Positions 32,029 to 48,332 of a stretch of 64,000 bases of DNA are shown here, piece by piece. This DNA is from Prostheceraeus crozeri (taxonomy: Eukaryota; Platyhelminthes; Polycladida; Euryleptidae), in assembly GCA_907163375.1 (NCBI GenBank), contig CAJQUW010014423.1, forward strand, positions 299,897 through 363,896. The letters are read 5' to 3'. The translations under genes were made by a program, and so were the position numbers. A model generated the notes under the pieces. The model searched no databases. It was given only the letters and a program-made list of their open reading frames with translations, and had not been told where the DNA came from. Each line of letters starts with the position of its first letter. The stretch's first letter is position 1.

Positions 32029-32133
32029 CGAGCCTTCCACAGTGAGAATCATTCCATCGTTGAATCACACGAGTGACGGACGCACATTTTCTCTCTCTCT
32101 CTCTCTAGTTCCCTATTCTACTATCCAACTAAA

Positions 32134-32908
32134 ATGGTAAGTCGCTACTTTCCTCCCTCTCCTCCCTTGAACGTAAACTTAATACAATCTTTTTCATTTT
32201 CAGGCATCTACTCCATCTGCTGCACTAGTAGGACAAAATGGCGGTCAAACGTTACAAGGTTCGCTACGATCAGATCATCTACAACTGAGGCCAGTGGAAG
32301 AAACAACCAAGGTACATAATTCTACACCGCTACAGCGTAAATTTAAACAAGTCTTGCGTTATGACGATCATGGCGTAGTACTCCAAACGGGAATGCTCCG
32401 TTCCACGGATGTCAAGATAATGCACAATCAGTATGGGGACTACATACTTATCCCCGTGAGTCCGTACATTCGCCACCAACTTGATATTATTGAGGAGTAC
32501 GTGACATTAAATATGGACATTCCTACTCCTCTTGCTCAAGAGTGGAAGGCGAGAGATGACAAGGATACTCCCTATAGAAAGATTTGGGATGGTAATCAAA
32601 TTTGCCTACCGGTATCAAATTGGTGCACTTACTATAAGAAGGAGGGAGATCATTTAACACCCATCACATGCGACGAGCTCGGAGAAGGTACTTGGGATAT
32701 CCTTTTCAAAGTGAATGGGCTATATTATGGTCGTCATAAGGATAATAAAATAGCCTCTGTCTCCATGCATATGGAATCCATCCTATATATTCCAAAACCA
32801 CCCAACGTGGACGACATAATTGATCAAATCCTTAACAGCAGTGGTACGAAGCGCAAGTCGGACAAGAATGCTGCATCAAAACGCAAATCAAAGAAGGAGA
32901 ATTACTAG
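32134..32908 (+). CDS. First left-end gene, 235 aa, two exons; possibly ssDNA-binding (function unproven)
   Basis: Exon 1 is only the ATG (32134-32136). A 67-bp intron follows (32137-32203, GTAAGT...TTTTCAG) and exon 2 runs 32204-32908, open and in frame for 234 codons. I prefer this to the internal GTG at 32294, which has no promoter fit. The protein has a Ser/Ala-rich start, a middle with GDYILIPVSPYIRHQL, a strand-rich segment KVNGLYYGRHKDNKIA ending near SILYIP, and a basic tail KRKSDKN..SKRKSKK that could be a nuclear signal. The Y-G-K pattern recalls OB-fold ssDNA-binding proteins. That is my inference and could be wrong. As the first gene behind the left promoter it may be expressed early with the polymerase. 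Confidence 0.65.
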
Positions 32909-32942
32909 TCCTTTCCTAACTCTACCCTATGACAATTCGCTT

Positions 32943-33068
32943 ATGTGCTTTGAGTGTCGTAGACGTGGTCTTATTAGATACATTTTACTTCTTCGTTGCC
33001 ATCATATCATTTGTGTATTTTGTCGTGAAAGGCATCGATGTAATTCTTCATTTTGTAATATGTTATAG
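32943..33068 (+). CDS. Mini RING-type zinc-finger protein, 41 aa
   Basis: Too short for most gene finders. Cysteines and a histidine are spaced C2-x2-C5-x13-C19-x-H21-x2-C24-x2-C27-x5-C33-x4-C38. This is the C3HC4 RING order except for the last pair, which is usually x2. RING proteins are typically ubiquitin E3 ligases; the role here is inferred from the fold only. It lies 34 bp after the first gene on the same strand. The RING gene at 34152 uses the same C-x2-C-x13-C-x-H core spacing, so the two are probably related. It could also be a 3' remnant of a larger protein. Confidence 0.5.
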   Translation: MCFECRRRGLIRYILLLRCHHIICVFCRERHRCNSSFCNML

Positions 33069-33120
33069 AACGTTTCCTTAGATGTGTAAATTTCCGTTTT
33101 AGGCTTCTATCATCATTTTT

Positions 33121-33651
33121 ATGGATTGTGAGGGTGAACCTGTGCAGGAGCTCAGTGCTATTGCTATGAACAATTGGACATATCAGATTGTCAGTGTCTA
33201 TCATCAACATGCCAACTGCAATCCCAATGTTGATCAATGGGCGAGAAAACACATTCATGGACTTAATCTGAAATATTTGCAAGACCATGGCTTTTCTTGT
33301 GACAGTGCTCTTCTTATTGACTTTAAACGATGGTTAGCTGCTTTCAATGTTATACGCATCTTTTGTAATAATCCTGGTAAGGAGAGGAAAGTATTTCCCA
33401 ATCTAATCATTGATGATATTTTGCTCCCACCTTGGGATAGTAGAGTGAATCAACATTATCATGAAGTCACGAAACGTTTTAAGGATTTGTCTGTTCCTAA
33501 TTTGTCTGTTCGTTATAGTAGCTACGTTCATAACCAATGCTTCTTTCCTCCTTACCTCAGCACTGCCAAAGTCCTGTATGGTTATCATTGCTCGCTGTAT
33601 GATAGTTACCAGCTGCATCTATTTTATCTGTTTCAAACCATTGATTTATAA
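33121..33651 (+). CDS. Possible DEDD-type 3'-5' exonuclease-like protein, 176 aa
   Basis: It starts MDCEGEPVQELSAI, with an Asp-x-Glu pair at residues 2 and 4 in the place of the exonuclease I motif of DnaQ/RNase T-type enzymes. It continues with a strand, then RKHIHGLN (about 42-49) and SALLIDFKRW (about 62-71), which could supply another acidic ligand. The usual C-terminal H-x(4)-D motif is not obvious, so activity is uncertain. The start is the first ATG after the preceding gene. The neighbourhood (RING proteins, first left-end gene) suggests an early or accessory role. It may instead be a Maverick-specific family with no nuclease activity. Confidence 0.5.
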   Translation: MDCEGEPVQELSAIAMNNWTYQIVSVYHQHANCNPNVDQWARKHIHGLNLKYLQDHGFSCDSALLIDFKRWLAAFNVIRIFCNNPGKERKVFPNLIIDDILLPPWDSRVNQHYHEVTKRFKDLSVPNLSVRYSSYVHNQCFFPPYLSTAKVLYGYHCSLYDSYQLHLFYLFQTIDL

Positions 33652-33738
33652 TGCATGCTTGTTACCGTTATTCAATAAATGTTACTATGAGAAGAGTTGT
33701 TGTTTTCATGCAATAGATGGGTTAGATAAAGGGCGATC

Positions 33739-34149
33739 ATGTCTTTCTCAAACGACTGCGGAACATTACATTTTCATAGGCAAAGTTTAAAAGGAGCTGT
33801 TCAAGATTATGTGATAAATTTTCATAAAGATGAGACCGACATCGAAGCAGTGGTCGATGATGCTAGCACTCTATTTCTAGAGTTAATGAATACATTCTCT
33901 GATAGCATTGTCATGGCGCGATTAGTTGCGAAAATTAAGTTTAGTCATTTTGGAAAGGAAGAGGTGGAAAGTCGCTCTTTCCATTTTGCTTCTTATTCAA
34001 TGGAAGTGGTAGATCACCCCGAAGAATTTTTTAAAAGACATATGATAAAAATTGCTGAACGTCTTAACGCATTTAACCATCATGGTAGCAGTCTAGTGAT
34101 TGAAGCGATTTCAGATATTCACATTCAACTTTCCATAAAGAAAAATTAA
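33739..34149 (+). CDS. Hypothetical protein, 136 aa, Maverick-type
   Basis: An intact frame from ATG 33739. The C-terminal half alternates charged and hydrophobic residues, with FHFASYSMEVV, RHMIKIAERLNAF and HGSSLVIEAISDIHI (about 85-130). This general pattern recalls the domain that in many Mavericks stands before the DNA polymerase, which is my impression only and not tested. There is no signal peptide or membrane segment. It ends 2 bp before the next gene, consistent with a compact block. Function unknown. Confidence 0.55.
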   Translation: MSFSNDCGTLHFHRQSLKGAVQDYVINFHKDETDIEAVVDDASTLFLELMNTFSDSIVMARLVAKIKFSHFGKEEVESRSFHFASYSMEVVDHPEEFFKRHMIKIAERLNAFNHHGSSLVIEAISDIHIQLSIKKN

Positions 34150-34475: not shown

Positions 34476-34526
34476 TACCTATGCAAATGTGGTAAAGATA
34501 GGTTTTAGCAAAGACTAACACGGAAA

Positions 34527-34892
34527 ATGGCGAAATGTAAAATGGCGAAACGTAAAAGTCAAAAGTCTTCAAAGGTTTCTTCAGCCATTCAAGCTCACCG
34601 ACGAATGAAAGCAAATCAGCGATACAATGCTATACGACATGCCAACGATAAATTCATTCGTGAAATTATTTCTTATGTCAGAAAGTTGAGGACGAAGAAA
34701 TTAGCGCCAAAACAACGAAAGTTACTTAAACGATATGCCACAAAATTGCGTTTCATCTCCAATCCTAAAGTCACCCTTCAAAGAAAGAGGAAAACTCTAA
34801 CTCAAAAGGGCGTTTTCCTTTCAGCAATACTTCCAATGTTAGCTCCAGCCGTGAGCAACCTATTGGGTAATATCTTCGGCTCTAAGCGTTAA
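34527..34892 (+). CDS. Small basic virion-type protein, 121 aa
   Basis: Very rich in Lys and Arg through residue 90 (KCKMAKRKSQKSSK, KLRTKKLAPKQRKLLKRY), then a short hydrophobic end GVFLSAILPMLAPAVSNLLG before GSKR. This basic-then-hydrophobic layout resembles DNA-condensing or core proteins of adenovirus-like and Maverick elements. It lies directly upstream of the packaging ATPase, so a role in virion core or packaging is a reasonable inference. No catalytic motif is present. The ATG at 34527 is preferred; a second ATG lies six codons in. Confidence 0.6.
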   Translation: MAKCKMAKRKSQKSSKVSSAIQAHRRMKANQRYNAIRHANDKFIREIISYVRKLRTKKLAPKQRKLLKRYATKLRFISNPKVTLQRKRKTLTQKGVFLSAILPMLAPAVSNLLGNIFGSKR

Positions 34893-34923
34893 TTATGCAA
34901 ATGTTGAATCTCAAAGTAATAAA

Positions 34924-35532
34924 ATGGATTTCAGACTTCAATGTGATAAAGTTCTGACTGTATCAGGTCCATCTCATGCAGGTAAAACTGTTTTCACGCT
35001 GAATTTATTGGATAAAAGAAGGGAGTTGTTTAAGGAACCTATCAATCGAGTGATTTGGTGTTATGGTATTTATCAACCGTCGCTGTTTCAGGAATTGCAA
35101 AGTCGCAACTTTATTCGACATGAAGGAATTATTGCAGTGGATAAACTTCAGTCTAATGATGTTGTTGTATTGGATGATTTATTAAAAGAAAGTAAGAATT
35201 CAAAAGATGTTACAGATATGTTCACTCGTGCAGCACATCATAAAAGGTGCTTTATCATCTATATCACACAAAATTTGTTTCCTGATGGAAAAGAAGCTCG
35301 TACACGAAACCTGAATATACACTATTATGCTATTTTCAAGAATCCGCGAGATAAAAGTCAATTTGAAATTTTAGCGCGACAAGTTGCACCCAGAGGATCA
35401 AAAACCTTAATTAAAATTTTTCAAGCAGCTACTGAAAAACCATACGGTTACTTATTCATTGACTTTACGCAAGAGTGTCCGGAAGAATTTAGATTTCGAA
35501 GTGATATTTTGAAAACTCCCATGATTATCTAA
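34924..35532 (+). CDS. FtsK/HerA-type genome-packaging ATPase, 202 aa
   Basis: Walker A is GPSHAGKT at residues 15-22 and Walker B is VVVLDD at 80-85. Then come HHKRCFIIYITQN, fitting the sensor strand, and an ARTRNLNIHYYAIFKNPRD segment, typical of the A32-like packaging ATPases of Mavericks and related DNA viruses. The frame is intact, length is near the family norm, and the start is the ATG directly after an AATAAA-like run. In the family this enzyme pumps DNA into the capsid. It is followed after 5 bp by another plus-strand gene. Confidence 0.9.
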   Translation: MDFRLQCDKVLTVSGPSHAGKTVFTLNLLDKRRELFKEPINRVIWCYGIYQPSLFQELQSRNFIRHEGIIAVDKLQSNDVVVLDDLLKESKNSKDVTDMFTRAAHHKRCFIIYITQNLFPDGKEARTRNLNIHYYAIFKNPRDKSQFEILARQVAPRGSKTLIKIFQAATEKPYGYLFIDFTQECPEEFRFRSDILKTPMII

Positions 35533-36231: not shown

Positions 36232-36447
36232 ATGAAGCAGATGTGTTGCTTGCCATGTAATGAGCCGCCAGAGGTGAATGTCGTTGTCACTTGCACTTGC
36301 TGCGCCAGCTCTCACAATGAAACCCCTAAGCAATGTGAACACGATCGCAAAACCGCTAAAGCTAAATGCTGCAGTTGTTGTAAATGTAGAAAGGCAAGAA
36401 AACAAAAAGATGAGAAGGAGAAAAAAGAGTCAGTCGTCATCGACTGA
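36232..36447 (+). CDS. Cysteine-rich small protein, 71 aa, overlapping the integrase start
   Basis: The ATG stands 1 bp after the stop of the previous gene. Cysteines are packed as MCCLPC, CTCC and CCSCCKC, followed by a highly charged tail. It overlaps the integrase frame, by 38 bp if the integrase starts at 36410. The dense cysteines and tight spacing argue for a real metal-binding protein, but no family is recognised and it is short. It could also be a shadow of an N-terminally extended integrase. Confidence 0.45.
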   Translation: MKQMCCLPCNEPPEVNVVVTCTCCASSHNETPKQCEHDRKTAKAKCCSCCKCRKARKQKDEKEKKESVVID

Positions 36448-37498
36448 ACGTTTGAAGTCAATCTATTATGATGTAAAACATCCGGCAGGATTTGCATCTA
36501 TCAAGAAATTATCAAAAGCGAGTGGTCTTCCACAATCACAAGTGAAACGATGGTTAAAGGGTCAGGCTACCTATACACTCCACAAACAAGCGAAAAAGAA
36601 GTACCGCATCCGCCATTATATTGTTCATGACATCGATGAACAGTGGCAAGCAGATTTGTGTGATGTTGCCTCCATTTCAAAACATAACTCGGGCAATAAT
36701 TTTATTTTAACCGTCATTGATATTTTCTCGCGTTATGCGTGGGCTCAACCTTTAAAAACTAAAGAAGGGAAAGGAGTAGCAAAAGCATTCCAAACAATTT
36801 TTCGAGAAGGTCGCATTCCAAAAAGAATTCAGAGTGATCAAGGAAAAGAGTTTGAAAATCAGCATGTGAGAAGATTATTTGAGAGGCATGACATTGAGTT
36901 GTTTAGTGTAAAGAGTGCTTATAAAGCTGCACTCGTTGAACGTTTTAATCGCACATTAAAAAATCGCTTGTGGCGACATTTTACTGCCAACTTGACACAA
37001 AATTGGACAAAGGTTCTACAAGATACACTCCATGCCTACAATCACTCTATCCATCGTTCTATTGGACTCAGACCAGTAGATGTAAATGCTGACAATGTAG
37101 ATAAAGTGCGCGAATCATTCCAACGTAAACGCACTCATGTGAAAAGTGATGTGAAAATTGGTGATAAAGTTCGTATCTCAAAAGTGAAGAGTGTTTTTGC
37201 CAAAAGGTACCTTCCGAATTGGACAGAGGAGGTATTTACAGTATCAAGGATTAATCAAAAAGACTCTCCGACCACCTACAAGTTGAAAGATTACGATAAT
37301 GAAGAAATTGAGGGTAGCTTTTACCGCGATGAGATTGAGGTAGTCACTGAAAGCGAAACATATTTGGTAGAGAAAATCATTCGATGTAAAAAACGGCAAG
37401 GTGAAGAATGGTGTCTTGTTAAATGGACTGGTTATCCTTCAAGTATGAACTCTTGGATGCGTCGTGCCGACATCTTTCATCTAAGTGATCGACAGTGA
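36410..37498 (+). CDS. Maverick integrase (RVE) with C-terminal chromodomain, 362 aa
   Basis: From the ATG at 36410: a basic start, a helix-turn-helix-like segment (FASIKKLSKASGLPQSQVKRW, first part at about 28-48), then the RVE core. The core has acidic residues in QWQADLCDV (D82), QSDQGKEF (D143) and ALVERFNRTLKNR (E176), the D,D-E triad. An SH3-like region (KIGDKVRI) and a chromodomain (YLVEKIIRCK to VKWTGYPSSMNSWM) close the protein. It is intact. The enzyme joins element ends to target DNA and would produce the 6-bp duplication seen; the chromodomain may direct insertion to chromatin. The frame is open up to 36278, but the extra part lies inside the Cys-rich gene, so I chose 36410. Confidence 0.9.
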   Translation: MRRRKKSQSSSTERLKSIYYDVKHPAGFASIKKLSKASGLPQSQVKRWLKGQATYTLHKQAKKKYRIRHYIVHDIDEQWQADLCDVASISKHNSGNNFILTVIDIFSRYAWAQPLKTKEGKGVAKAFQTIFREGRIPKRIQSDQGKEFENQHVRRLFERHDIELFSVKSAYKAALVERFNRTLKNRLWRHFTANLTQNWTKVLQDTLHAYNHSIHRSIGLRPVDVNADNVDKVRESFQRKRTHVKSDVKIGDKVRISKVKSVFAKRYLPNWTEEVFTVSRINQKDSPTTYKLKDYDNEEIEGSFYRDEIEVVTESETYLVEKIIRCKKRQGEEWCLVKWTGYPSSMNSWMRRADIFHLSDRQ

Positions 37499-37539
37499 TT
37501 CATGCAAAGTTGTAACTAACAATGTTTAGGGTTTGAGCT

Positions 37540-37995
37540 ATGAATCCAACTGCCTCATTTTATTCACGACCCTCCTATGTAAGTGGTGGAGGACAAATTT
37601 ACATCGGCGCTCGCCGCCAACGTGGAGGTAGCATACTTGGTGCACTGAAATCTGTTGTAGCACCTCTAATACCCAATGTCCGTAGATCTTTAAAACGAAA
37701 TGTTTTAAGTAATGCCGTTGGCTTTGCTGGTGATGTTGCTAGTGATCTTTCCAGAGGTAGAAGTTTTAAGAGCAGTTTGTTGAATCGTGGGAAGGAACGC
37801 GGTTTAAAAACATTGAAGCAGACCTTTGCTGGTGTTACTCAAGGAAAGAAATCACCTAAACGAATGAAAAAAGGAAGGAGGAAACATCGCGGAGCTGGTA
37901 AGGTGCGATCTTCAGTCAAAAGGCATTCACGCAAACGTCGCACAGGCTCTAATCATTCATCAGGCGCTAAACGACCACGCTGCCATAACTTATAA
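37540..37995 (+). CDS. pVI/pX-like virion protein, 151 aa
   Basis: Gly-rich N-terminus (SGGGQIYIGARRQRGG), a hydrophobic amphipathic segment SILGALKSVVAPLIPNV (about 31-47), then a long Lys/Arg-rich tail ending in KRHSRKRR. An amphipathic N-part with a basic tail resembles the adenovirus-type minor virion proteins also found in Mavericks. That is resemblance in layout rather than proven homology. The frame is intact and lies directly before the capsid gene. It probably contacts DNA or membranes within a particle. Confidence 0.6.
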   Translation: MNPTASFYSRPSYVSGGGQIYIGARRQRGGSILGALKSVVAPLIPNVRRSLKRNVLSNAVGFAGDVASDLSRGRSFKSSLLNRGKERGLKTLKQTFAGVTQGKKSPKRMKKGRRKHRGAGKVRSSVKRHSRKRRTGSNHSSGAKRPRCHNL

Positions 37996-37997
37996 TT

Positions 37998-39272
37998 ATG
38001 GAGTGTAAAACTTCCGGGTTTTGTTTGATCAACAAGCCATACAGACAGATATTCTTAGTTCAAGTATTGTAGATTATCATCCTCGAACAGCTGAGAATGC
38101 TGGCCCCATTGAATTTGTTATTCCTGGTGGTAGTGATGAGTACATAGATTTGAGTTATGCGATGCTTGATTTGAGGTTTAGAATTCAGCAAGCAGATGGA
38201 ACTGCTATTGACGATGCACATAAAGTTGGACTGAACAATTTACCATTGACTACATTACTTCGCGATGTTTCTCTAACGATTGGAGAGCAGCAGGTGGAAG
38301 GTGATCAAAGCGATTATCCCTATTAATCATATTTCAATCATGTATCACAGTTTCATCCAGCAGCACAAAAAAAGTCATATGGAAGCCATGGGATGGTACA
38401 GAGATGAAGCAGGAAAATTTGATGTTGAAACAAACAGTGGCTTTGTAAAGCGATCTGCTATGATTAAAGATAGTAGAGTATGTCAGCTATATGGTCCGCT
38501 GAATTTAGACTTCTTTAGACAGTCAAAGTTTTTACTCTGTAATACCAGCATGCGACTCAAGCTGACATTAAATAAGCCTGAATTTGCGCTGAATGCATTT
38601 GCTAAAGTTGACAATTTTAGAATTCTTGTGGAAGATATTGCACTTTACATTCGTCGAGTAGTACCGAATCCAAGTGTCATTAGAGGGCATGCTGAAGGTC
38701 TTAACCGCCAAAATGCCATTTACCCCGTTCAGCATACAAAGCTTCTCACCTTTACAATTCCGAAAGATCAAAAGAGTTTCATGAAAGATGGCCTCTTTCC
38801 ATCGGAAGCACCGAAGCTCCTCATGGTGGCAATGGTTAAAAATGATGCATTTAATGGTAATATAAAGAAGAATCCTTTCAATTTTAAACACAATCAGTTA
38901 AGTAAAATTGCTTTACGTGTAAATGGTGTGACTCATCCTGGTCCACCCTACAAACCAGATTTTGCTTTGGATCAATTTATAAGCAGTTATGTTGATTTTA
39001 TGGATGTCTTTGGCTTTTACAATACGGATGACACCAACGGACTGACTATGAAAGAGTTTAAGAGTGGATATACTATTTATGCGTTTGATTTGAATGCTGA
39101 CAGCGATATTAGTGCACCCTATCGTCAAGCGAACGTGCCTCATAATATTCGTTTGGATTTGACGTTCAAAAGAACACTACCTGAGACGATCAATGTATTA
39201 ATTTATGCAGTCTTCGATTCAAATATTGAAATTACAAAGTATCGTGACGTGATTCTTCAGTATAATCGTTAA
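37998..39272 (+). pseudogene. Capsid protein of the F54H12.2-type family (probable jelly-roll), broken
   Basis: Blocks of a conserved Maverick capsid-type family are seen in order: IEFVIPGGSDEYIDLSYAML (about 38108), then EAMGWYRDEAGKFD (38378), LNLDFFRQSKFLL and NPFNFKHNQLSKIAL (38870). I think it is the major, double jelly-roll capsid protein, but the minor one is possible. Three lesions: a one-base shift near 38020 just after the ATG at 37998, an in-frame TAA at 38324-38326, and a shift in an A7 run at 38367-38373. The last 300 codons are open. Its TAA overlaps the protease ATG (TAATG at 39270-39274). Confidence 0.75.
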
Positions 39273-39768: not shown

Positions 39769-40314
39769 TTATTTTACAATCCGCTGGGTACGTACATACT
39801 CGATGAGATAGTCTAGGATCACATTTGCTTGTACGTGAGATTTTAGTCCAGTAATGATCACTTTACTATTATGAAAGATTGCCACATGCACAGGTAACCA
39901 ACAACTAATGAGAGCTGCAGGAAAAAGTTCGGGTTCATAACACAAATTGTAACTGCTGGTACGAATCTTCAAAAATGATACACTTTCACTCAATTGAGTA
40001 GAGATCACCATATTGTCCACAGTCAGATTCGACATCACACACCTCTCCCTCTTCCATATCCGACGTAGTAGTCTCTGTAGTTCTAAGCGCATTGACTGCG
40101 CCGATGAATGAGAAAGGGCGCCGAGAATCTGTACAGTCCCATTTGGGAAGAGTTGAAGATTCCGTGAATTGTTCATCTTCACCACTAACATTTGAGGTCG
40201 GCCCGGGTAATACTTGCTGTTTGGAAAGTGTTGGTGTAATGTTGTGAGATCGATTTTGGTGTAGAGTCTGAAGCGACGGAGAATGTTGACGATGGTGTAG
40301 CGATGGCGCTTCAT
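39769..40314 (-). CDS. TATA-box-binding protein (TBP) homologue, 181 aa
   Basis: From the ATG at 40314 the protein is 181 residues, close to the size of a bare TBP core. Two repeats are visible. Residues about 6-86 run from YTIVNILRRF through SKYYPGRPQM to LFPNGTVQILGALS. Residues about 98-178 run from LTVDNMVIS through LCYEPELFPAALI to AIFHNSKVIITGLK. The second repeat carries the YEPELFP and IF..-KV--TG motifs that mark TBP, with both DNA-intercalating phenylalanine positions kept (F131, F147). In repeat 1 the second is kept (F56) and the first appears to be Pro40. It should bind TATA-like DNA and act in transcription initiation. A TATA box lies 43 bp upstream. The frame extends to 40458 without a better start. 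The stop overlaps an AATAAA. Confidence 0.82.
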   Translation of the reverse strand: MKRHRYTIVNILRRFRLYTKIDLTTLHQHFPNSKYYPGRPQMLVVKMNNSRNLQLFPNGTVQILGALSHSSAQSMRLELQRLLRRIWKRERCVMSNLTVDNMVISTQLSESVSFLKIRTSSYNLCYEPELFPAALISCWLPVHVAIFHNSKVIITGLKSHVQANVILDYLIEYVRTQRIVK

Positions 40315-40636
40315 GATGAAAAAATGAGTAAATTGAGCGATGTACCTTCCTTTTATACTTTTCCCAACTACCTTGATGAAATGTGAAGTTAGTATGAAGT
40401 TGGGAATGATAGAGTTGAATTCGCCGTTTGTTGACGCGCAGCCAGATGCGATTTCCAATACGTGAATGTCTTTTCATATAGAAGTATTTCAAATCCTTCA
40501 TGATATAATGTAGAAATTGAAAATGACGATAAGATAAAGCAAACTCTCTTCTCAAATTTCCAGTTGAATCTTTGAAATAGACGTTTCGATCATGATCCGT
40601 TTCAATACGTTGTAGGGAATCTAATTTCCAACTCAT
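39986..40636 (-). CDS. Duplicated small protein, copy 1, weakly PC4/p15-like
   Basis: The frame opens at ATG 40636. The first 100 or so residues (WKLDSLQRIETDHDRNVYFK, then NLRREFALSYRHFQFL, GNRIWLRVNKRRIQL) align with copy 2 at 41027-40749. The pattern of strands, a basic/glycine step, then L-x2-QF--L recalls the ssDNA-binding fold of the coactivator PC4; that is weak evidence. Beyond about residue 100 the frame runs antiphase over the TBP gene to 39986 and shows no conservation, so the true end may lie near 40330 or a stop has been lost. It sits directly upstream of TBP on the same strand. Confidence 0.5.
   Translation of the reverse strand: MSWKLDSLQRIETDHDRNVYFKDSTGNLRREFALSYRHFQFLHYIMKDLKYFYMKRHSRIGNRIWLRVNKRRIQLYHSQLHTNFTFHQGSWEKYKRKVHRSIYSFFHHEAPSLHHRQHSPSLQTLHQNRSHNITPTLSKQQVLPGPTSNVSGEDEQFTESSTLPKWDCTDSRRPFSFIGAVNALRTTETTTSDMEEGEVCDVESDCGQYGDLYSIE
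40351..40357 (-). promoter_or_regulatory. TATA box before the TBP gene
   Basis: TATAAAA on the minus strand, 43 bp before the TBP ATG, within AGTATAAAAGGAAGGTACAT. A diverged copy (AGTATAGAAG, near 40733) lies at the matching place after the upstream paralogue, so the duplicated unit included this promoter. Confidence 0.6.
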
Positions 40637-40748
40637 GGTGCGTGGTAGTCATGTCTGATTAAGATTTGCATAGTAGGGCGATAAACTCACGACGAATAAA
40701 TGTCATGATGGAGCGATGTATGTATCTTCTATACTTCTCCCAATTGTA

Positions 40749-41027
40749 TTAGCGAAATGAGAAACAGTTTGCGGAATGAGAATCGCAGATTTGAATTTCA
40801 TTTCTGTAATGTTGAAGCCAAACTTGATCACCCAAGGAGATGAATCTTAATGTTTCAAAATATTCCAAATCCCTCATGATATCATTGAGGTTGACAAATT
40901 GTCGCCATGTTAATGTAATACCTCTTGATGTATGACCATGAGAATTTTTGAAATGTACGTTTCCATTTCGATCAACTCTGATATATTGTAGAGAGTCCAA
41001 AATCCAAGTCTTCATGATGTTATGCAA
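40749..41027 (-). CDS. Duplicated small protein, copy 2, weakly PC4/p15-like, 92 aa
   Basis: Starts at ATG 41027. WILDSLQYIRVDRNGNVHFK, then SRGITLTWRQFVNLNDIMRDL and LGDQVWLQHYRNEIQI match copy 1 block by block, so the two are tandem paralogues. RGITLTWRQF--L resembles the KGI-L---QW--L segment of PC4-type coactivators. The frame stops at 40749, but similarity to copy 1 continues for about 25 codons after the stop (NWEKYRRYIHRSI), so the stop was probably gained. It diverges from the plus-strand gene at 41051 with only 23 bp between the ATGs. Confidence 0.55.
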   Translation of the reverse strand: MHNIMKTWILDSLQYIRVDRNGNVHFKNSHGHTSRGITLTWRQFVNLNDIMRDLEYFETLRFISLGDQVWLQHYRNEIQICDSHSANCFSFR

Positions 41028-41050
41028 AGTCGCAGATCAGCAATATAAAA

Positions 41051-42448
41051 ATGTCGTTTTATCATATTTTGCTTAGCAATGCGGCCGCAAATAGATTTGC
41101 TAGTAATCGAGCCGCACTCTTTTCTACTCCCATTGATCATACACAACAGCTAAATGGAAAGTGGGAAGTGGGTGTCACTCAACTTGTTCACAGTAACTGT
41201 GTCTATACTTTTGATTATGAGGTGATGACTATTAATATGAGACGCACAGCTGCTTACCAATGTGAAAAGGGCTGCCGAGTATACATTCCACAATGGTCGA
41301 AGAAAGATCTTCTATCACGTCAGAAATTCGTTTATAATTTCCTGAATAAAGCGTGTAAACATATTGTCCAATTTACTCCGCACAATGATGATCATAATTA
41401 TGTACATCATGTAGTTGAGAAAGATTGGATTGTTGGTTTAAGTCCAAGTTTAAGAAATGATTTAGGTTACCTCGCTAGCGCCTTAACAAGCTATGATAAT
41501 TATAACGTTAATTACCACCCAAGTGGTCATAAAGAGTTAATATATCGAGAGGAAGCTTATTATGTAGATCTTATTCCAAGAAATGAGAAGACGTTGGTGA
41601 AGAAGATTGTGATTAAGCCAAGAAAGACAAACATGACTCCTGAAACATTATTGAAGAAATTTAATTATCTCCTTCGAGTTGATGGTAAACAATTGGCAAC
41701 ATTGACTTATATCAAATCATCTAATCATATTGCAATAAGCAAATTAAATGATGATGATCTAGTATTAGTTTGTTCAAAAGATTTTCATCAGTTCTTACGA
41801 CATCATTCTGCAGCTGTTCATGGAAAATTTGATATGCAACATATACCATGTGAAAGGTCAAATCAATTTGATACAGAATGGACCGTATCTTTATACAGAA
41901 AGTGTGTAGAGCCTTTCGGTGGTATCTTACATGAAACAAGAGTGTTGATGCCTCGCATTATTACTTCGGTTAAATTGGTTGTAGATTATTTAAATGAAGT
42001 GATTAATGAGCAACATATTTTATTTTCTGAAAAAGAAGGTGTTTTGTCTCTCACTATAAGTGGAAAAGGTATTGAACTAATTATGGATAAAACTCTAATG
42101 GACATTTTGGGTTTTGATCAAAATATCTTTAAAAGTGGTACTGTAACCAAAGCTAGCGCAGACATGTCGCTATCGCGTCGTATTAACTATTTTCAGATAT
42201 ATTCCAATATTGGTGAAGATGTACGTGTGGGAGATGTTAAAGCTCCATTGCTAGCAATGATACCATACCAGCCAAAAAGCTGTAGTATTTTATCTGAGCA
42301 TACTTTCAAGAAAGTGCATTATACAAAGCTGAAATCAAACTACATCCCACAAATTGATGTTGCCATTTATGATGATGCTGGTGCGTTGATTCCTTTTCAT
42401 GAAGATGCTGTGACAAGTATCACACTCCATTTCCGAATGAAGAGTTAA
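41051..42448 (+). CDS. Capsid-type Maverick protein, intact copy, 465 aa
   Basis: The N-terminus SFYHILLSNAAANRFASN, then LNGKWEVGVTQL (about 36-47), and the C-terminal part (VRVGDVKAPLLAMIP, then IDVAIYDDAGALIPF and a final TLHFRM) are the hallmarks of an abundant Maverick protein family that I believe is a virion protein. The family is either penton/minor capsid or another jelly-roll type; I cannot decide from sequence. It is intact from ATG 41051, directly preceded by AATATAAAA. A broken paralogue follows at 42524-44007. Confidence 0.65.
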   Translation: MSFYHILLSNAAANRFASNRAALFSTPIDHTQQLNGKWEVGVTQLVHSNCVYTFDYEVMTINMRRTAAYQCEKGCRVYIPQWSKKDLLSRQKFVYNFLNKACKHIVQFTPHNDDHNYVHHVVEKDWIVGLSPSLRNDLGYLASALTSYDNYNVNYHPSGHKELIYREEAYYVDLIPRNEKTLVKKIVIKPRKTNMTPETLLKKFNYLLRVDGKQLATLTYIKSSNHIAISKLNDDDLVLVCSKDFHQFLRHHSAAVHGKFDMQHIPCERSNQFDTEWTVSLYRKCVEPFGGILHETRVLMPRIITSVKLVVDYLNEVINEQHILFSEKEGVLSLTISGKGIELIMDKTLMDILGFDQNIFKSGTVTKASADMSLSRRINYFQIYSNIGEDVRVGDVKAPLLAMIPYQPKSCSILSEHTFKKVHYTKLKSNYIPQIDVAIYDDAGALIPFHEDAVTSITLHFRMKS

Positions 42449-42523
42449 TGCAAAAGTATGCTAATATATTTTTCCAATGTGAATAATATGTAAAGTGAAA
42501 ATAAGGACTCGTTTCTAATCTAC

Positions 42524-44007
42524 TTGCCCAGTAATGCTTCTATGAATAAATTTCCCAAAAATAAACCATCAGACTATCGAGTAGAATTAAATCTCCCACT
42601 ACATTTAGAAGGTGAATGGGAGGTTGGCGTTTCTAGTATTTGCTATGATAGCAATATTCAGAATGTGAATGATTTGGAAGAAATGATATTGACTCCTCGC
42701 ACCCATGATGGAATAACGATGAATAATGCATTCCAATTCCCATACAATTTAACATCAGATGGAAAGTGGAACTATGAATGGATTCAGATAAAATCAGATT
42801 ATTATGGTCCATTTGGGGATGAGAAAATTATTAAGGCATTCAATAGTGGTAATACTTCCATCATGAAGAATAAAAATCAGAAAGTTTATGAGTTTACTAT
42901 CTATCATTGGAGTGGGAGACAGTTCCTTCGCTTTCATTCTTTTACTAAAGGTCTTACACTGAGGTTGGATAATGAATTCTATCCACATCTTGGTTTTGGT
43001 CATGGACTACATCTAACGTCAATTGCTACTGCAAATGTTAAAAAAGTTTATTCAAATCGAATCACCAATTTCATTATAGATTTTAAATATTTGATGAAGA
43101 TGTTGTAGAATGCGAAGAACGCATCATTTTGAAAAAGCGTGGTGTTCAACCTTTATCACTTATTGAGTTAGTAAAACGATGGAATGAGACCGTGGGTAAG
43201 AAGTATGGAGAGAAAATTATGGCGGACAAAAATAAGTTGGTTATTCAGAAATATGATGACAAACTTACAGTTTATTTCTCTCCAACCTTGCGTCATTTTG
43301 TAAGACATTATACACCTATTATTGGAAGCGGTCTGGTGTATGCTTCTCATGAATATCAGACTAAAGCTGATTAAGTTAATTATGAATGGTGGGTGGACAT
43401 CTATGGTGATCGCATCAAGAAAATTTACCAGTCTTATGAAGAATCTAAAGTTGCTATCAATATAATGCCGCGTCTATATCATACAGTTGAAAGCTTCATT
43501 CATGTAGTAAATCCTTATATACAACAGAAGTTGAAGCATGTGATGAAAAGTAAATATGATGTAAAGACACACCACATTTCGTTTTCAATTGAAAATCAAC
43601 GCGTTGTTCTGAAACTGGGCGATGACATTCAATGTCAATTGAGTAAAAATTTGAAAAAACTCTTTGGTTTTTCAATGCTACATACTGTGTTTACTGCTGC
43701 GCATACGACTGGTATAGAAACACCAATGAAACTTGATAAACATGAACAGGACCTTTACATTCAAAGTGATTTGATTCTTCCTATTTCTGTTGGTGAGAAA
43801 AAAGAATACATTTTACGTGATTTCATTCATGATAAAGACGCTTCATATGGAATAGTCGAGAAGATGTTTGAATCTATTTTCTATCATCCAGTCGTCAAAC
43901 AAACTATACCCTCTATTGCTATCAAAATTACCAATGGTTTACAAGAGTGCATCCATGTGAAAGATACTAAATCCCTCGTAACTTTAGTGTTTCGGAAAAC
44001 AAAGTGA
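42524..44007 (+). pseudogene. Capsid-type paralogue, broken into three frames
   Basis: The same family signature as the preceding gene: LPSNASMNKFPKN at the N-terminus, LEGEWEVGVSSICY, and an ending with SLVTLVFRK. Three consecutive frames (42524-43108, about 43090-43374, about 43385-44007) carry successive parts, so two frameshifts are present near 43090 and 43375. No ATG is found in frame at the start; the frame begins shortly after a TAA near 42490. It arose by tandem duplication of the upstream gene and has decayed. Confidence 0.7.
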
Positions 44008-44185: not shown

Positions 44186-47100
44186 TTATGTCAATACATC
44201 TCCTGAATGTGGTAGCGTGAGTTTTATTCTTTTGGGTGGAGGTATGTTTGTGTCAGGATGTCCATGTGGAAGAGATGTGTTATGTCCTATCCAACACCTC
44301 TTATCCTCCCATGCTGAAAGCGCTCGTTTCTTGAACGTGTGCGTTTTCACAGTATGAACTTGAGATTTTAAGATTGTCATATTGACAAACGTTATAGTTT
44401 TATTTTTATAGGCCTTCTTATAGGACCGATGTTTCATTTTGTGAACAATGGATTTTGATATACCTTTAGCACGCTCAATACTAAAAGCATGCTTAATACT
44501 ATCTGCACATTCTTTTAATTTCATGGAATACATTTTAGGACGGAGGAGAATCATTTCATCTATTTCCTTTCCTGCTGTTTCATCCTTAAAACAACCAAGT
44601 TTGGCTTTATTCTCTATGGAATAGAGTGGATGAGTGGGATTGTAGTTAGATGTGTCGAAATATTTTTCTAATGACTTACCTACTTCATTAAAATTTAAAT
44701 CTTTTTGAGTGGTAATTCCTTAAAAGAAACTGTCTGTATCACCACCCAGCAAGCGAACCTCTTTTACAAGAGGGCACGGTTTTAATATTTTGTAGAAGAG
44801 TTGATACATTTCAAGCTTGGAATAATCTCAAACGGCTTGCCCAATATAGATGGGTTTGCACAACTCAACTTCTGATTTTATCATTTTAACACCTACAAGA
44901 TCCTCATCGATAATGTCTCTATCAATGAAAAGAGGTGATGAGGTCAATTTGTGATATTTTTGATCATCAATGACTAGTTTGTAGTTCATAGGTTTTCTAA
45001 CATCCTCCATGGTCTTTCCGAAAAGACTGTTATTCTTATATTTATAAAAATCCTTTTCAAAATTATTTTGGGCGAGTGCACGTTTTTGACTGTTACTATC
45101 TATGTAGGGTTTGAGGAAGGCTTTCTGTCTAAATTTGATAATGCGGTGAACTGACTTTAGAAGAATGCCCATTTCTAAATAGAATTTTAGTATGCAGAAG
45201 TGTACGAGATAATTTTTCTTATCATATTGGGTGAGTAAAAGTTTGCGGCATGGTTTGTACCTTGGCTGTCCACACTCTGTTAAGTTATTATGAAATTGTG
45301 ACATGAATGGTGAAAACATATCTTCAGTCACTTCACCAGATTCAGGTGCGAGTGGGAAATCAGCAGTTTTATTTTTGATACCATTTGGAAAAATCAAATC
45401 CACTTCAAAATAATATCCCCAATCACCTTCATCTGGAATCTTCAGTATGTTTGAAGGGTTGGAGTAATACTCAAGCTCATCTTGATTTAACCAACTAAAC
45501 TCGGAATGAGGTAGTGGTTTAGACAGTGAACTGCCATATAAATTATTTTGGTCATGGTACTTTAGGTGGATATGATCATCACCTACTGTTTCAGATTTTA
45601 TATGATGTTTATTTACAAATGTGAGACCACCGCGTATTCCGCGCTCAAATATATTATACATCTCCGGGTCTTGTAAGAGATGAATGGTCTCACCAGTCAT
45701 TTTAAAGGCTGATTTAAAGGACATGGCTGGTAGACTGACAAAGTGGACAGGATCTAATTTGTCTTCTTCTCATGCCACTCGTCGAAATTCCTGAAAGACA
45801 TCAGCCAGCAAAATGACATCTAATTCTAAGTAAGCGATCATATAATCGCCAAACGTTTTACAATCAAATTTTAACCATGCCTCTTGACCACGTTCATAAT
45901 CTTCTACTGGACAATCTTCACCCGTCAAATCGTTTTTGAATTTGTCAATGGAAGGAAGGGTTGTTTCATTTAGTTTAGACATTGAGCTAAAATACGCATA
46001 AGGAAAGACTCCTTTGCGAGTGATTATTTCATCCGTTAAGTTTGGATAGTGTTTCTTCAAAGTTTGACTATGGGGAAGAAACTTCAGATTACGAACGAGA
46101 GAAGCTAGTGACGCTGACATGAATTGGAATGAATCTAAAAATTTTATTTCGAAGAAGACTGTCTTATTTTCTTTAGTTTTATCTACTGATACTTTTGCTG
46201 TCATTGCCATGAATTTTTCTCTCGTTTGCGCTATTACATTAAACTGCCACGATTTCATCTGGCTCAACCCTCCTTTTATGAGCATATGACTGTCATAGCC
46301 CTTAAAGTTATGAAAAATGACGGGTAGTACACGACGTCTCAACCTAAGTGAAAAATTACATTTGGAGCAGAGTGCGTTTCTAAATTTACCAGTGATGTGA
46401 TCATGATCACGCACTTTCTTAATTTTATCGTCATCAAACGTTTTATGACATTTAGGGCACGATGTGCAACTTTCAAATTTTTGTTTGTCTTCATCTGACA
46501 TATGTAGTGACTTACGCTGCAATTGGGAATCATATGATTGTTGAAATTTAGCAGCTTTATCGAGAAATTCTAGAAATTTTGAAATGCAATCTTCACCTTG
46601 CCAAGTATGCATTTTGTTTTGTCTATTCCTAAAGTGGTCATGCCATACTTCATAGCAGGATATGGCTGCTGGCTTGTGGATGATATCATCAATGTAGCAT
46701 TCTATGTCTGCGTAAATGACACACAGGGGACTTAATTCGTCACCATTATCCCTATGTGAAAATATTTGATCTTTGGGCATGCGTTCCATTTGTAATTTAC
46801 CTCGCTTGCACCATTCATAGTGAGTTTCAAATTTATCTTTACTCCAAAAGGAGCGGATGCAGCGGTCGCATACAAAATGTTCACCTCTTTTAGAGTGCCC
46901 CAAGTGAGTGTACAAGCGAGAGATTTTGGGAATACCACAGTAGTGCCATTCCTCGCTATCATCTTGTTTTACTAATAAGAGGTTGACTACACGTTCATAA
47001 CAAGTTGAACGTGAATTATAGCGGGCACCCTTCAACCCCTTCTCCCACACGTGAACTACAATTTTAATCTGATTATGTTTCTCGAACGTTTCTACATCTT

Positions 47101-48178
47101 TGATTTTCATGTTGTCACTATCACAACCTTCAAAGTCTAGTTCATCCTCCCACTGTCTATAGCTATAGGTGCGATCTCGGTGCGCGTTGATATCATTATA
47201 GTGAAGGATGGATAGGACTGCATATTTGAAACACTGTGATTTACAAACGACATTGATGACAGCTTTCTTATTATACAACGTTTTTGGTAGTTTAAATGTG
47301 CCTCGAGCTGCATGACTTTCTAATAGGGAAATTTTGAATATGGCTGAGTCCACACCATCAAAAATGAGAGCGCTGTCGCGTTGATTGAATTTATCTACAT
47401 TTGATTTTAAACATTGAATGTGAAAATTTAGCCAAGACTCGCAGTCTACAACTTCGGTTGCGGAAGAGGAAGGAACATGAAACTGTATTCTGTCCGTCAC
47501 TTGACCCGTTTGAGAATCTATTTTAATGTATTTTAGTTTGAGGTAGATGAGCGCCTTCATTCTAAAATTGTCTAAATTGTTGAAGAGCGCTTCGATAATG
47601 TTAGAATTTTGAAGGAGCCACTCAGGAAAATCTACTATTTGAGTATTGGACTCCATGCAGTAGTCGCGTACTAAATTATTATGTGAAACATTAATGAGGG
47701 AGATGGTAGAGGTACCGTTGGTGTAGTGATCATTTGCATGCGTGTGTTGAAGTCTGTGCGAAGATCGCTGAAAGTGACTATCAAAAGAAAGAGGGCACAA
47801 ATCGCAAGGAAAGGAGATGTCATCGTCAGAATCAACTTCACCTCCGGAGATTGACGCCGCTTTGCGTTGACACACACGTTGTTTGATGTGTCGAAGGAGA
47901 CTGTGCTTCCTTGTAAAAATATGTCCGCAGTCGGCACATTCCCACTCGTTGCCTTGTCGCGAGAGTCCTGAGCTGGAACTCACATCACCTGAAAGAGAAA
48001 TCATTCTATCATCTCTGTTCAAGTCTCAGTGTATTGTTACAACCTACTTTGACTCAACAACTCTAAACTTTCCTCGAGAAGGGAGGGCGTTGGTGATGAA
48101 GTTGATGCCTGAAATTGAGGAAGATGCTATTAGCCACACGTTTGAGGGAGATGAGTGAAGAAATTTTCAACTTACCAT
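44186..48178 (-). pseudogene. Protein-primed DNA polymerase B, three exons, three nonsense codons
   Basis: Proposed exons: ATG alone (48178-48176), 48108-48048, 47988-44186, with introns of 67 bp (48175-48109) and 59 bp (48047-47989), all GT-AG and in phase, 1,289 codons in all. Domains: two N-terminal C2H2-like fingers (CADCGHIF, CDLCPLSF), a third Cys/His cluster (CDRCIRSFWS), exonuclease motif I YADIECY, an endonuclease VII-like Cys cluster with RDHDHITGKFRNALC, Exo II HNFKGYDSHM, Exo III YLELDVILLADVF, polymerase motif A with NNLYGSSLSKPLP, motif B with KNNSLFGKTMEDVRK, and motif C DTDS (44740-44729). One frame throughout, but with TGA at 45772-45770, TGA at 44830-44828 and TAA at 44722-44720. 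It would replicate the element; this copy cannot make a full protein. Confidence 0.9.
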
Positions 48179-48332
48179 TTCAACGAAATCGAGTTTAAGG
48201 TTGATACTTCAACAAGATAGAGACTTCACGAGAGAGCAGTTCACTTGTACGCCTCAAATATAGAATTCGCCAGAGAACACTTCACTTATATGTCACAAAG
48301 ACAGAGTGAAATGACACGAATGTCACTTTACA

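Follow-up and report, generated by a model that had tools for sequence, protein, structure and literature searches.

The TATA-binding protein (TBP) is normally a hardly changing hub common to all nuclear polymerases. Virus-encoded forms of the TBP fold are known from giant viruses and mirusviruses: TBP was reported in 59% of mirusvirus genomes (PMC10132985), while algal mirus-like elements (PMC10675990) and giant or large algal viruses (PMC4602308, PMC11464507, PMC12085832) are the subject of further papers. As far as the excerpts of these papers go, virus-borne TBPs come from large viruses, and the large virus of PMC11464507 owns an RNA polymerase and TFIIB. In the excerpts of a review (PMC7786948), Polinton-type and TBP-type terms both occur, unconnected. 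A description of a Polinton/Maverick TBP was not found in the open-licence PMC literature on Polintons, Mavericks, adintoviruses, and virophages, in keeping with the original prediction for this locus, which knew of none; the novelty is provisional, since the search covered open-licence papers, without subscription journals and preprints.

The window, that is, the whole 64,000-nucleotide stretch of Prostheceraeus crozeri DNA analysed here, contains a roughly 16-kb element (Table 1) that shares with Mavericks/Polintons and adintoviruses an rve integrase with chromodomain, a PolB-like gene, and terminal inverted repeats, as well as a Ulp1-type protease in the related family C. Its TBP sets it apart from the members of these groups described in the papers searched, and its small size and the absence of a recognised polymerase subunit set it apart from giant viruses and mirusviruses. 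The scan of the element proteins, in which most ORFs have no Pfam match, recognised neither an RNA polymerase subunit nor TFIIB, and use of host Pol II is therefore presumed. We put the probability at roughly one half that this Polinton/Maverick lineage relies on the RNA polymerase of the host while supplying a promoter-recognition factor itself.

Table 1. Features of the element and its upstream words in the window (positions relative to the ATG are negative)
Feature	Position	Strand	Remarks
Left inner terminal inverted repeat arm	32132..32217	+	74% complementary to 48095-48180
ATGCAAA motif	34481..34487	+	-46 of ORF at 34527
ATGCAAA motif	34895..34901	+	-29 of ATPase-like ORF
ATPase-like protein	34924..35532	+	putative packaging ATPase; weak Pox_A32 and AAA matches, below cut-off
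rve integrase with chromodomain	36278..37498	+	rve 5.2e-11, Chromo 6.1e-07
ATGCAAA motif	37502..37508	+	-38 of ORF at 37540
Capsid-like gene	38021..39272	+	label from place and size; two frames in window copy
Element TBP gene	39769..40314	-	181 aa, two TBP repeats
216-aa ORF	39986..40636	-	PUR/Whirly-like N-terminal domain (residues 1-110) and disordered tail
TATAAAAG box	40350..40357	-	43 nt upstream of TBP ATG, within overlapping ORF codons Y-K-R
ATGCAAA motif	40665..40671	-	-35 of PUR/Whirly-like ORF
Paralogue of PUR/Whirly-like domain	40749..41015	-	40% identical to other copy
ATGCAAA motif	41022..41028	+	-29 of ORF at 41051
Two genes with related N-termini	41051..44007	+	461-aa and 514-aa frames in L026; putative structural role
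ATGCAAA motif	42448..42454	+	upstream of ORF around 42524
DNA polymerase B	44186..48022	-	label from DTDS motif by eye in L013 equivalent; three frames in window copy
Right inner terminal inverted repeat arm	48095..48180	-	

The rve integrase was also matched in family C (1.4e-13), and the Ulp1-type protease in the family C copy L026 (PF02902, E 7.1e-05, 23.2 bits vs 20.7). The capsid-like gene gave no Pfam match above the cut-off, the 426-aa candidate included, and the polymerase gene gave no Pfam polymerase match, its DTDS motif having been noted by eye. TBP had been said to be open while other genes are broken, and this holds in the window: the capsid-like gene lies in two frames, the polymerase in three, and there is no open frame for the protease. 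The terminal inverted repeats measure 86 nt at 74%, and are longer if gapped. In both repeats (32134-32217 and 48095-48178) an ATG is followed directly by an intron-like stretch, GTAAGT...CAG, and in the left repeat a TATA-like word, TATATAAATA, lies about 115 nt upstream of this start; a start exon and promoter carried on the repeat may therefore be common to the two divergent genes at the outer ends. Small gene families of about 140, 176, and 205 aa (32294-34149, L013:1-4122, L033) occur in all three element families, with more than one copy per element in family B, and gave no Pfam match above the cut-off in the members scanned.

The TBP gene had been predicted to encode a bare TBP core of two repeats, with a profile search and a structure prediction proposed as checks. 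Both agree with it: the PF00352 match reached 73.1 bits against a curated cut-off of 22.9, and the predicted structure is a two-repeat saddle. In an alignment with host, human, microsporidian, and archaeal TBP, Pro40 occupies the first intercalating Phe position of repeat 1 and Leu64 replaces the Thr that ends the G-K-x-x-x-T-G strand of the same repeat; we take these positions to be the DNA-contacting Phe and Thr of a canonical repeat 1. Repeat 2 of the window protein retains both Phe, the Thr, and the YEPELFP that had been noted in it. Conservation was counted in the alignment also used for folding, which joins the window protein to 71 of the 132 metagenome proteins listed (72 sequences). 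P40 and E129 are each conserved in 71/72, so that the claimed replacement of one of four intercalating Phe, with the other three kept, extends to nearly the whole set; R39, F56, F131, F147, and T155 are invariant (72/72), L64, E127, and L130 are each conserved in at least 90%, and the Pro between the two stirrup Glu is variable. These counts indicate a protein family in which repeat 1 is altered and fixed while repeat 2 is canonical. A canonical TATA-specific TBP has four intercalating Phe and paired central Thr, a definition that leaves the element TBP outside. The middle of the TATA box is met by paired Asn and Thr in cellular TBP; one of these residues would be Leu in the element TBP.

Cellular TBP (human 1cdw, yeast 1ytb, M. 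jannaschii 2z8u) shares with the element protein the saddle, the repeat 2 Phe pair and Thr, and the YEPELFP stirrup, but is only 19-26% identical to it; the element TBP differs by the Phe to Pro and Thr to Leu changes of repeat 1, is without an N-terminal extension, and falls in a separate clade. TRF2/TBPL1, which serves promoters without a TATA box, is likewise a diverged TBP with altered DNA-contact Phe (host copy L002, labelled by eye), but its changed residues are not those of the element TBP, and the host TRF2-like fragment clusters with cellular TBPs, on a long branch. From its TBP and TRF2-like genes, the host would be an animal.

A single-sequence search with the element TBP gave 60 protein clusters at E <= 0.001, of 87 candidates, and a profile search gave 4307 clusters at the same threshold, of 7993 scored, a number that will include cellular TBPs. 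The phylogeny that had been suggested, with host TBP and a TBP-related factor, was built from 36 rows: seven own-element TBPs, 23 of the 132 metagenome TBPs, and six cellular proteins (host TBP, host TRF2-like, human, E. cuniculi, and two archaea), viral TBPs being left out. A 100/100 branch splits the 30 element and metagenome TBPs from the six cellular rows, among which the TRF2-like and M. jannaschii rows form long branches; family A TBP groups with P0002-P0004, and families B and C with P0008. On the predicted fold and this tree, the element TBP is a TBP-fold protein of its own clade. Recent capture of host TBP is ruled out by the tree together with the low identity (22% to human TBP). No relative of the TBP, the TBP alignment, the host TBP, the integrase, or the capsid-like protein was found in IMG/VR viral contigs, and gene neighbourhoods are therefore seen in this genome only.

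This divergence might point to a role directed at the host, in which the element TBP titrates TFIIB/TAFs or occupies host promoters, damping or redirecting host transcription, without promoters of its own on the element. Such a role would suit the identity of about 22% to human TBP and the better conservation of repeat 2 than of repeat 1, an asymmetry because of which the protein might compete for TFIIB and bind DNA differently. We consider it unlikely, since it leaves unexplained both the positional motif common to element genes (see below) and the retention of TBP in family B, where no capsid-like, protease, ATPase, or integrase gene is detectable.

In the genome (2.05 Gb), at least 150 matches to PF00352 were scored, some of them exons of host TBP and of the TRF2-like gene, and the element TBP itself gave at least 150 matches, 99-100% identical over residues 1-181, with internal stops in 0/150 among the matches listed. 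Twenty stretches taken from the PF00352 matches, that is, chosen by TBP, were sorted with the window into family A (window, L017-L023, L028; TBP at least 96% identical), family B (L009-L016 and L024, the latter in two pieces; TBP about 43% identical), and family C (L025-L027; about 43%). The same gene, which was to be sought in related elements, is thus present in three families of elements within this genome. In A and C alike it is flanked by the capsid/protease side and by the next structural-type gene. A chance capture or misreading is ruled out by the PF00352 match, the recurrence in element families, the tree, and the open copies genome-wide. Because the first 20 stretches had been chosen by TBP, ten were chosen by polymerase: a full-length TBP match was found in 9/10, open in all nine, and the tenth stretch fell on the neighbouring gene. 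Out of 19,929 first-look candidates genome-wide, 132 polymerase matches were scored, 97-100% identical and in many cases with a frame that stays open for about 1273 codons; by these figures the polymerase copies represent a large, recent Polinton expansion.

Among open-frame copies only, TBP pN/pS was 0.33 (15 family A copies) and 0.53 (five family B copies). The filter was an open frame of 150 aa with an ELFPA motif. It left 15 of 18 family A copies, L023 having failed it and L019 and L028 having been removed by hand for a differing start or stop, and five of nine family B copies, L009, L014, and L016 having failed it and L024, with a broken frame, having been removed by hand. The ratios indicate that the element TBP is kept open under purifying selection.

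Family B holds PolB and the pair formed by TBP and the overlapping PUR/Whirly-like gene; no match to the integrase, capsid-like, ATPase, or protease proteins was found in 9/9 of its stretches or in the flanking DNA fetched for two of its copies. It therefore looks like a capsid-less relative still keeping TBP, and for the absent genes it may rely on family A or C. Inverted repeats flank it, over 864 columns at 92% in one copy (reaching the end of the fetched stretch) and 167 bp at 94% in another. Across the wider set of family B copies (L009-L016, L024, L029-L032), at least 16.2 kb lies between the outer repeat ends seen in one copy. That this family keeps polymerase and TBP without detectable capsid-like genes could also suggest a DNA-bending or architectural protein serving replication, integration, or packaging, and not transcription; small elements are generally known to reuse DNA-binding folds. 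We hold this to be very unlikely, given that the stirrup E-x-E-L is conserved at E129, E127, and L130, a surface that contacts TFIIB in cellular TBP complexes, and that a PUR/Whirly-like partner overlaps the TBP gene.

The 216-aa ORF overlaps the TBP gene over 39986-40314, where its tail is read in the +2 frame relative to TBP. Its modelled N domain points to a PUR/Whirly-like fold at 8% identity to PURalpha/Whirly, with no Foldseek match at E <= 0.001; compared with that single-stranded nucleic-acid-binding fold, the element protein adds the disordered tail that overlaps the TBP gene. A guess by eye that the ORF was PC4 was rejected, there being no Pfam PC4 match and the model favouring PUR/Whirly. 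Dual coding is supported by the open frames, by similarity beyond permutation, and by full-length metagenome relatives. Synonymous constraint in the overlap, as expected under dual coding, left no clear sign in the A-B, A-C, and B-C comparisons, same-codon counts in the overlap and the rest being 22/47 and 17/28 (A-B), 21/42 and 13/29 (A-C), and 30/49 and 22/41 (B-C). The A-C similarity of the overlapping frame is weak (153/5000 permutations with stop columns excluded; identity P 0.077), and its pN/pS is 1.56 in family A and 0.67 in family B. The JGI metagenome protein P0134 is 97% identical to the overlapping ORF, which indicates that an environmental sample contains DNA of the window element or of one very similar to it. 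The contigs behind the metagenome proteins P0046, P0020, P0042, and P0134 measure 24.7, 20.5, 17.6, and 10.3 kb, respectively.

The TATAAAAG box recurs ahead of the TBP ATG in the other families, at -43 in L013 (family B) and at -46 in L026 (family C), a recurrence that rests on a small sample of three families and concerns a word within Y-K-R codons. From -60 to -18, TATA(A/T)A precedes one of 13 family A genes (TBP) and 3/13 in family C (TBP, protease, and one more), and TATAAAA stands at -22 of one family B gene (L013). All 4096 6-mers were scanned over this interval ahead of 13 genes each in families A and C. The top word in family A, where the motif had been spotted by eye before statistical testing, was ATGCAA (7/13 genes, with 12 occurrences over the two strands of the entire element; P 1.1e-10 uncorrected, about 5e-7 when multiplied by 4096 words); in family C it was AAGCAA (6/13 genes, 19 in all; P 3.6e-7 uncorrected, about 0.0015 when multiplied). 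The joint word A(A/T)GCAA is present at 8/13 family A and 6/13 family C gene starts, and absent from 5/13 and 7/13, respectively. It lies ahead of 7/12 gene starts in the window, as many as in 0/2308 shifted placements (mean 0.42, maximum 3), with one match on the opposite strand. The element as a whole has no excess of ATGCAAA (8 vs 6.1 expected), and only its placement is unusual. Among those of the eight motif-bearing family A genes that were compared with family C, four have motif-bearing C equivalents (ORFs at 34527, 37540, 41051, and about 42.5 kb); the family C counterpart of the PUR/Whirly-like ORF is without the motif, as is a second C copy of the 34527 ORF. Five family B gene starts of L013, read by eye, gave one AAGCAA and one TTGCAA.

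A host factor, POU/octamer-type or other, might read A(A/T)GCAA, the element TBP then being an ordinary extra TBP on TATA-like sites. The family A word ATGCAAA(T) matches the octamer (ATGCAAAT being the POU/octamer word), and TATA-like words do stand at the TBP gene in every one of the three families, as well as in the left repeat and ahead of some genes of families B and C. This explanation is nevertheless doubtful: the family C word AAGCAA is not an octamer, the spacing of -29 to -46 to the ATG in family A suits a core promoter element, and Pro40 in 71/72 sequences means that repeat 1 has not stayed canonical. The element-wide upstream motif lends indirect support to an element TBP that, as first suggested, might choose its own promoters. 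Several motif sites (TATGCAAA or TTAAGCAA) can, in our own reading, be taken as a TATA-like word with a G-C centre.

Starting from the observed fold, conservation, gene order, and motif, we infer binding, recruitment, and timing as follows. On entry or reactivation, host TBP/TFIID would use the TATAAAAG box to start the TBP gene, and might also start the repeat-borne outer genes, which bear a TATA-like word; TBP need not be the only early gene, because such words also occur in the left repeat and at a family B gene. The element TBP, with its canonical repeat 2 and altered repeat 1, would then bind A(A/T)GCAA some 30-50 nt before the ATG and recruit host TFIIB and Pol II to later genes, assisted by the PUR/Whirly-like protein, which would bind single-stranded DNA or activate transcription. 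The outcome would be an early/late switch without an element-owned RNA polymerase. This full programme, in which host TBP serves TATA genes and the element TBP reads A(A/T)GCAA and co-evolves with a partner that binds single-stranded DNA and is encoded in a frame overlapping its own, is put forward tentatively, at less than even odds.

What is provisionally new here is the carrier of a virus-type TBP, a roughly 16-kb transposon, together with the altered contacts of the protein, its overlapping partner, and the candidate promoter code. The element TBP clade, with its many metagenome relatives, offers a marker for finding more such elements, and its natural series of TBP variants, together with candidate cognate promoters, could be used to study how TBP reads DNA. 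The finding opens a testable possibility: small DNA viruses and transposons might have a promoter code of their own and yet no polymerase, and the specificity of TBP might evolve anew. If the proposed programme is true, the promoters of the element and the specificity of its TBP would co-evolve, as a transcription code private to Polintons.
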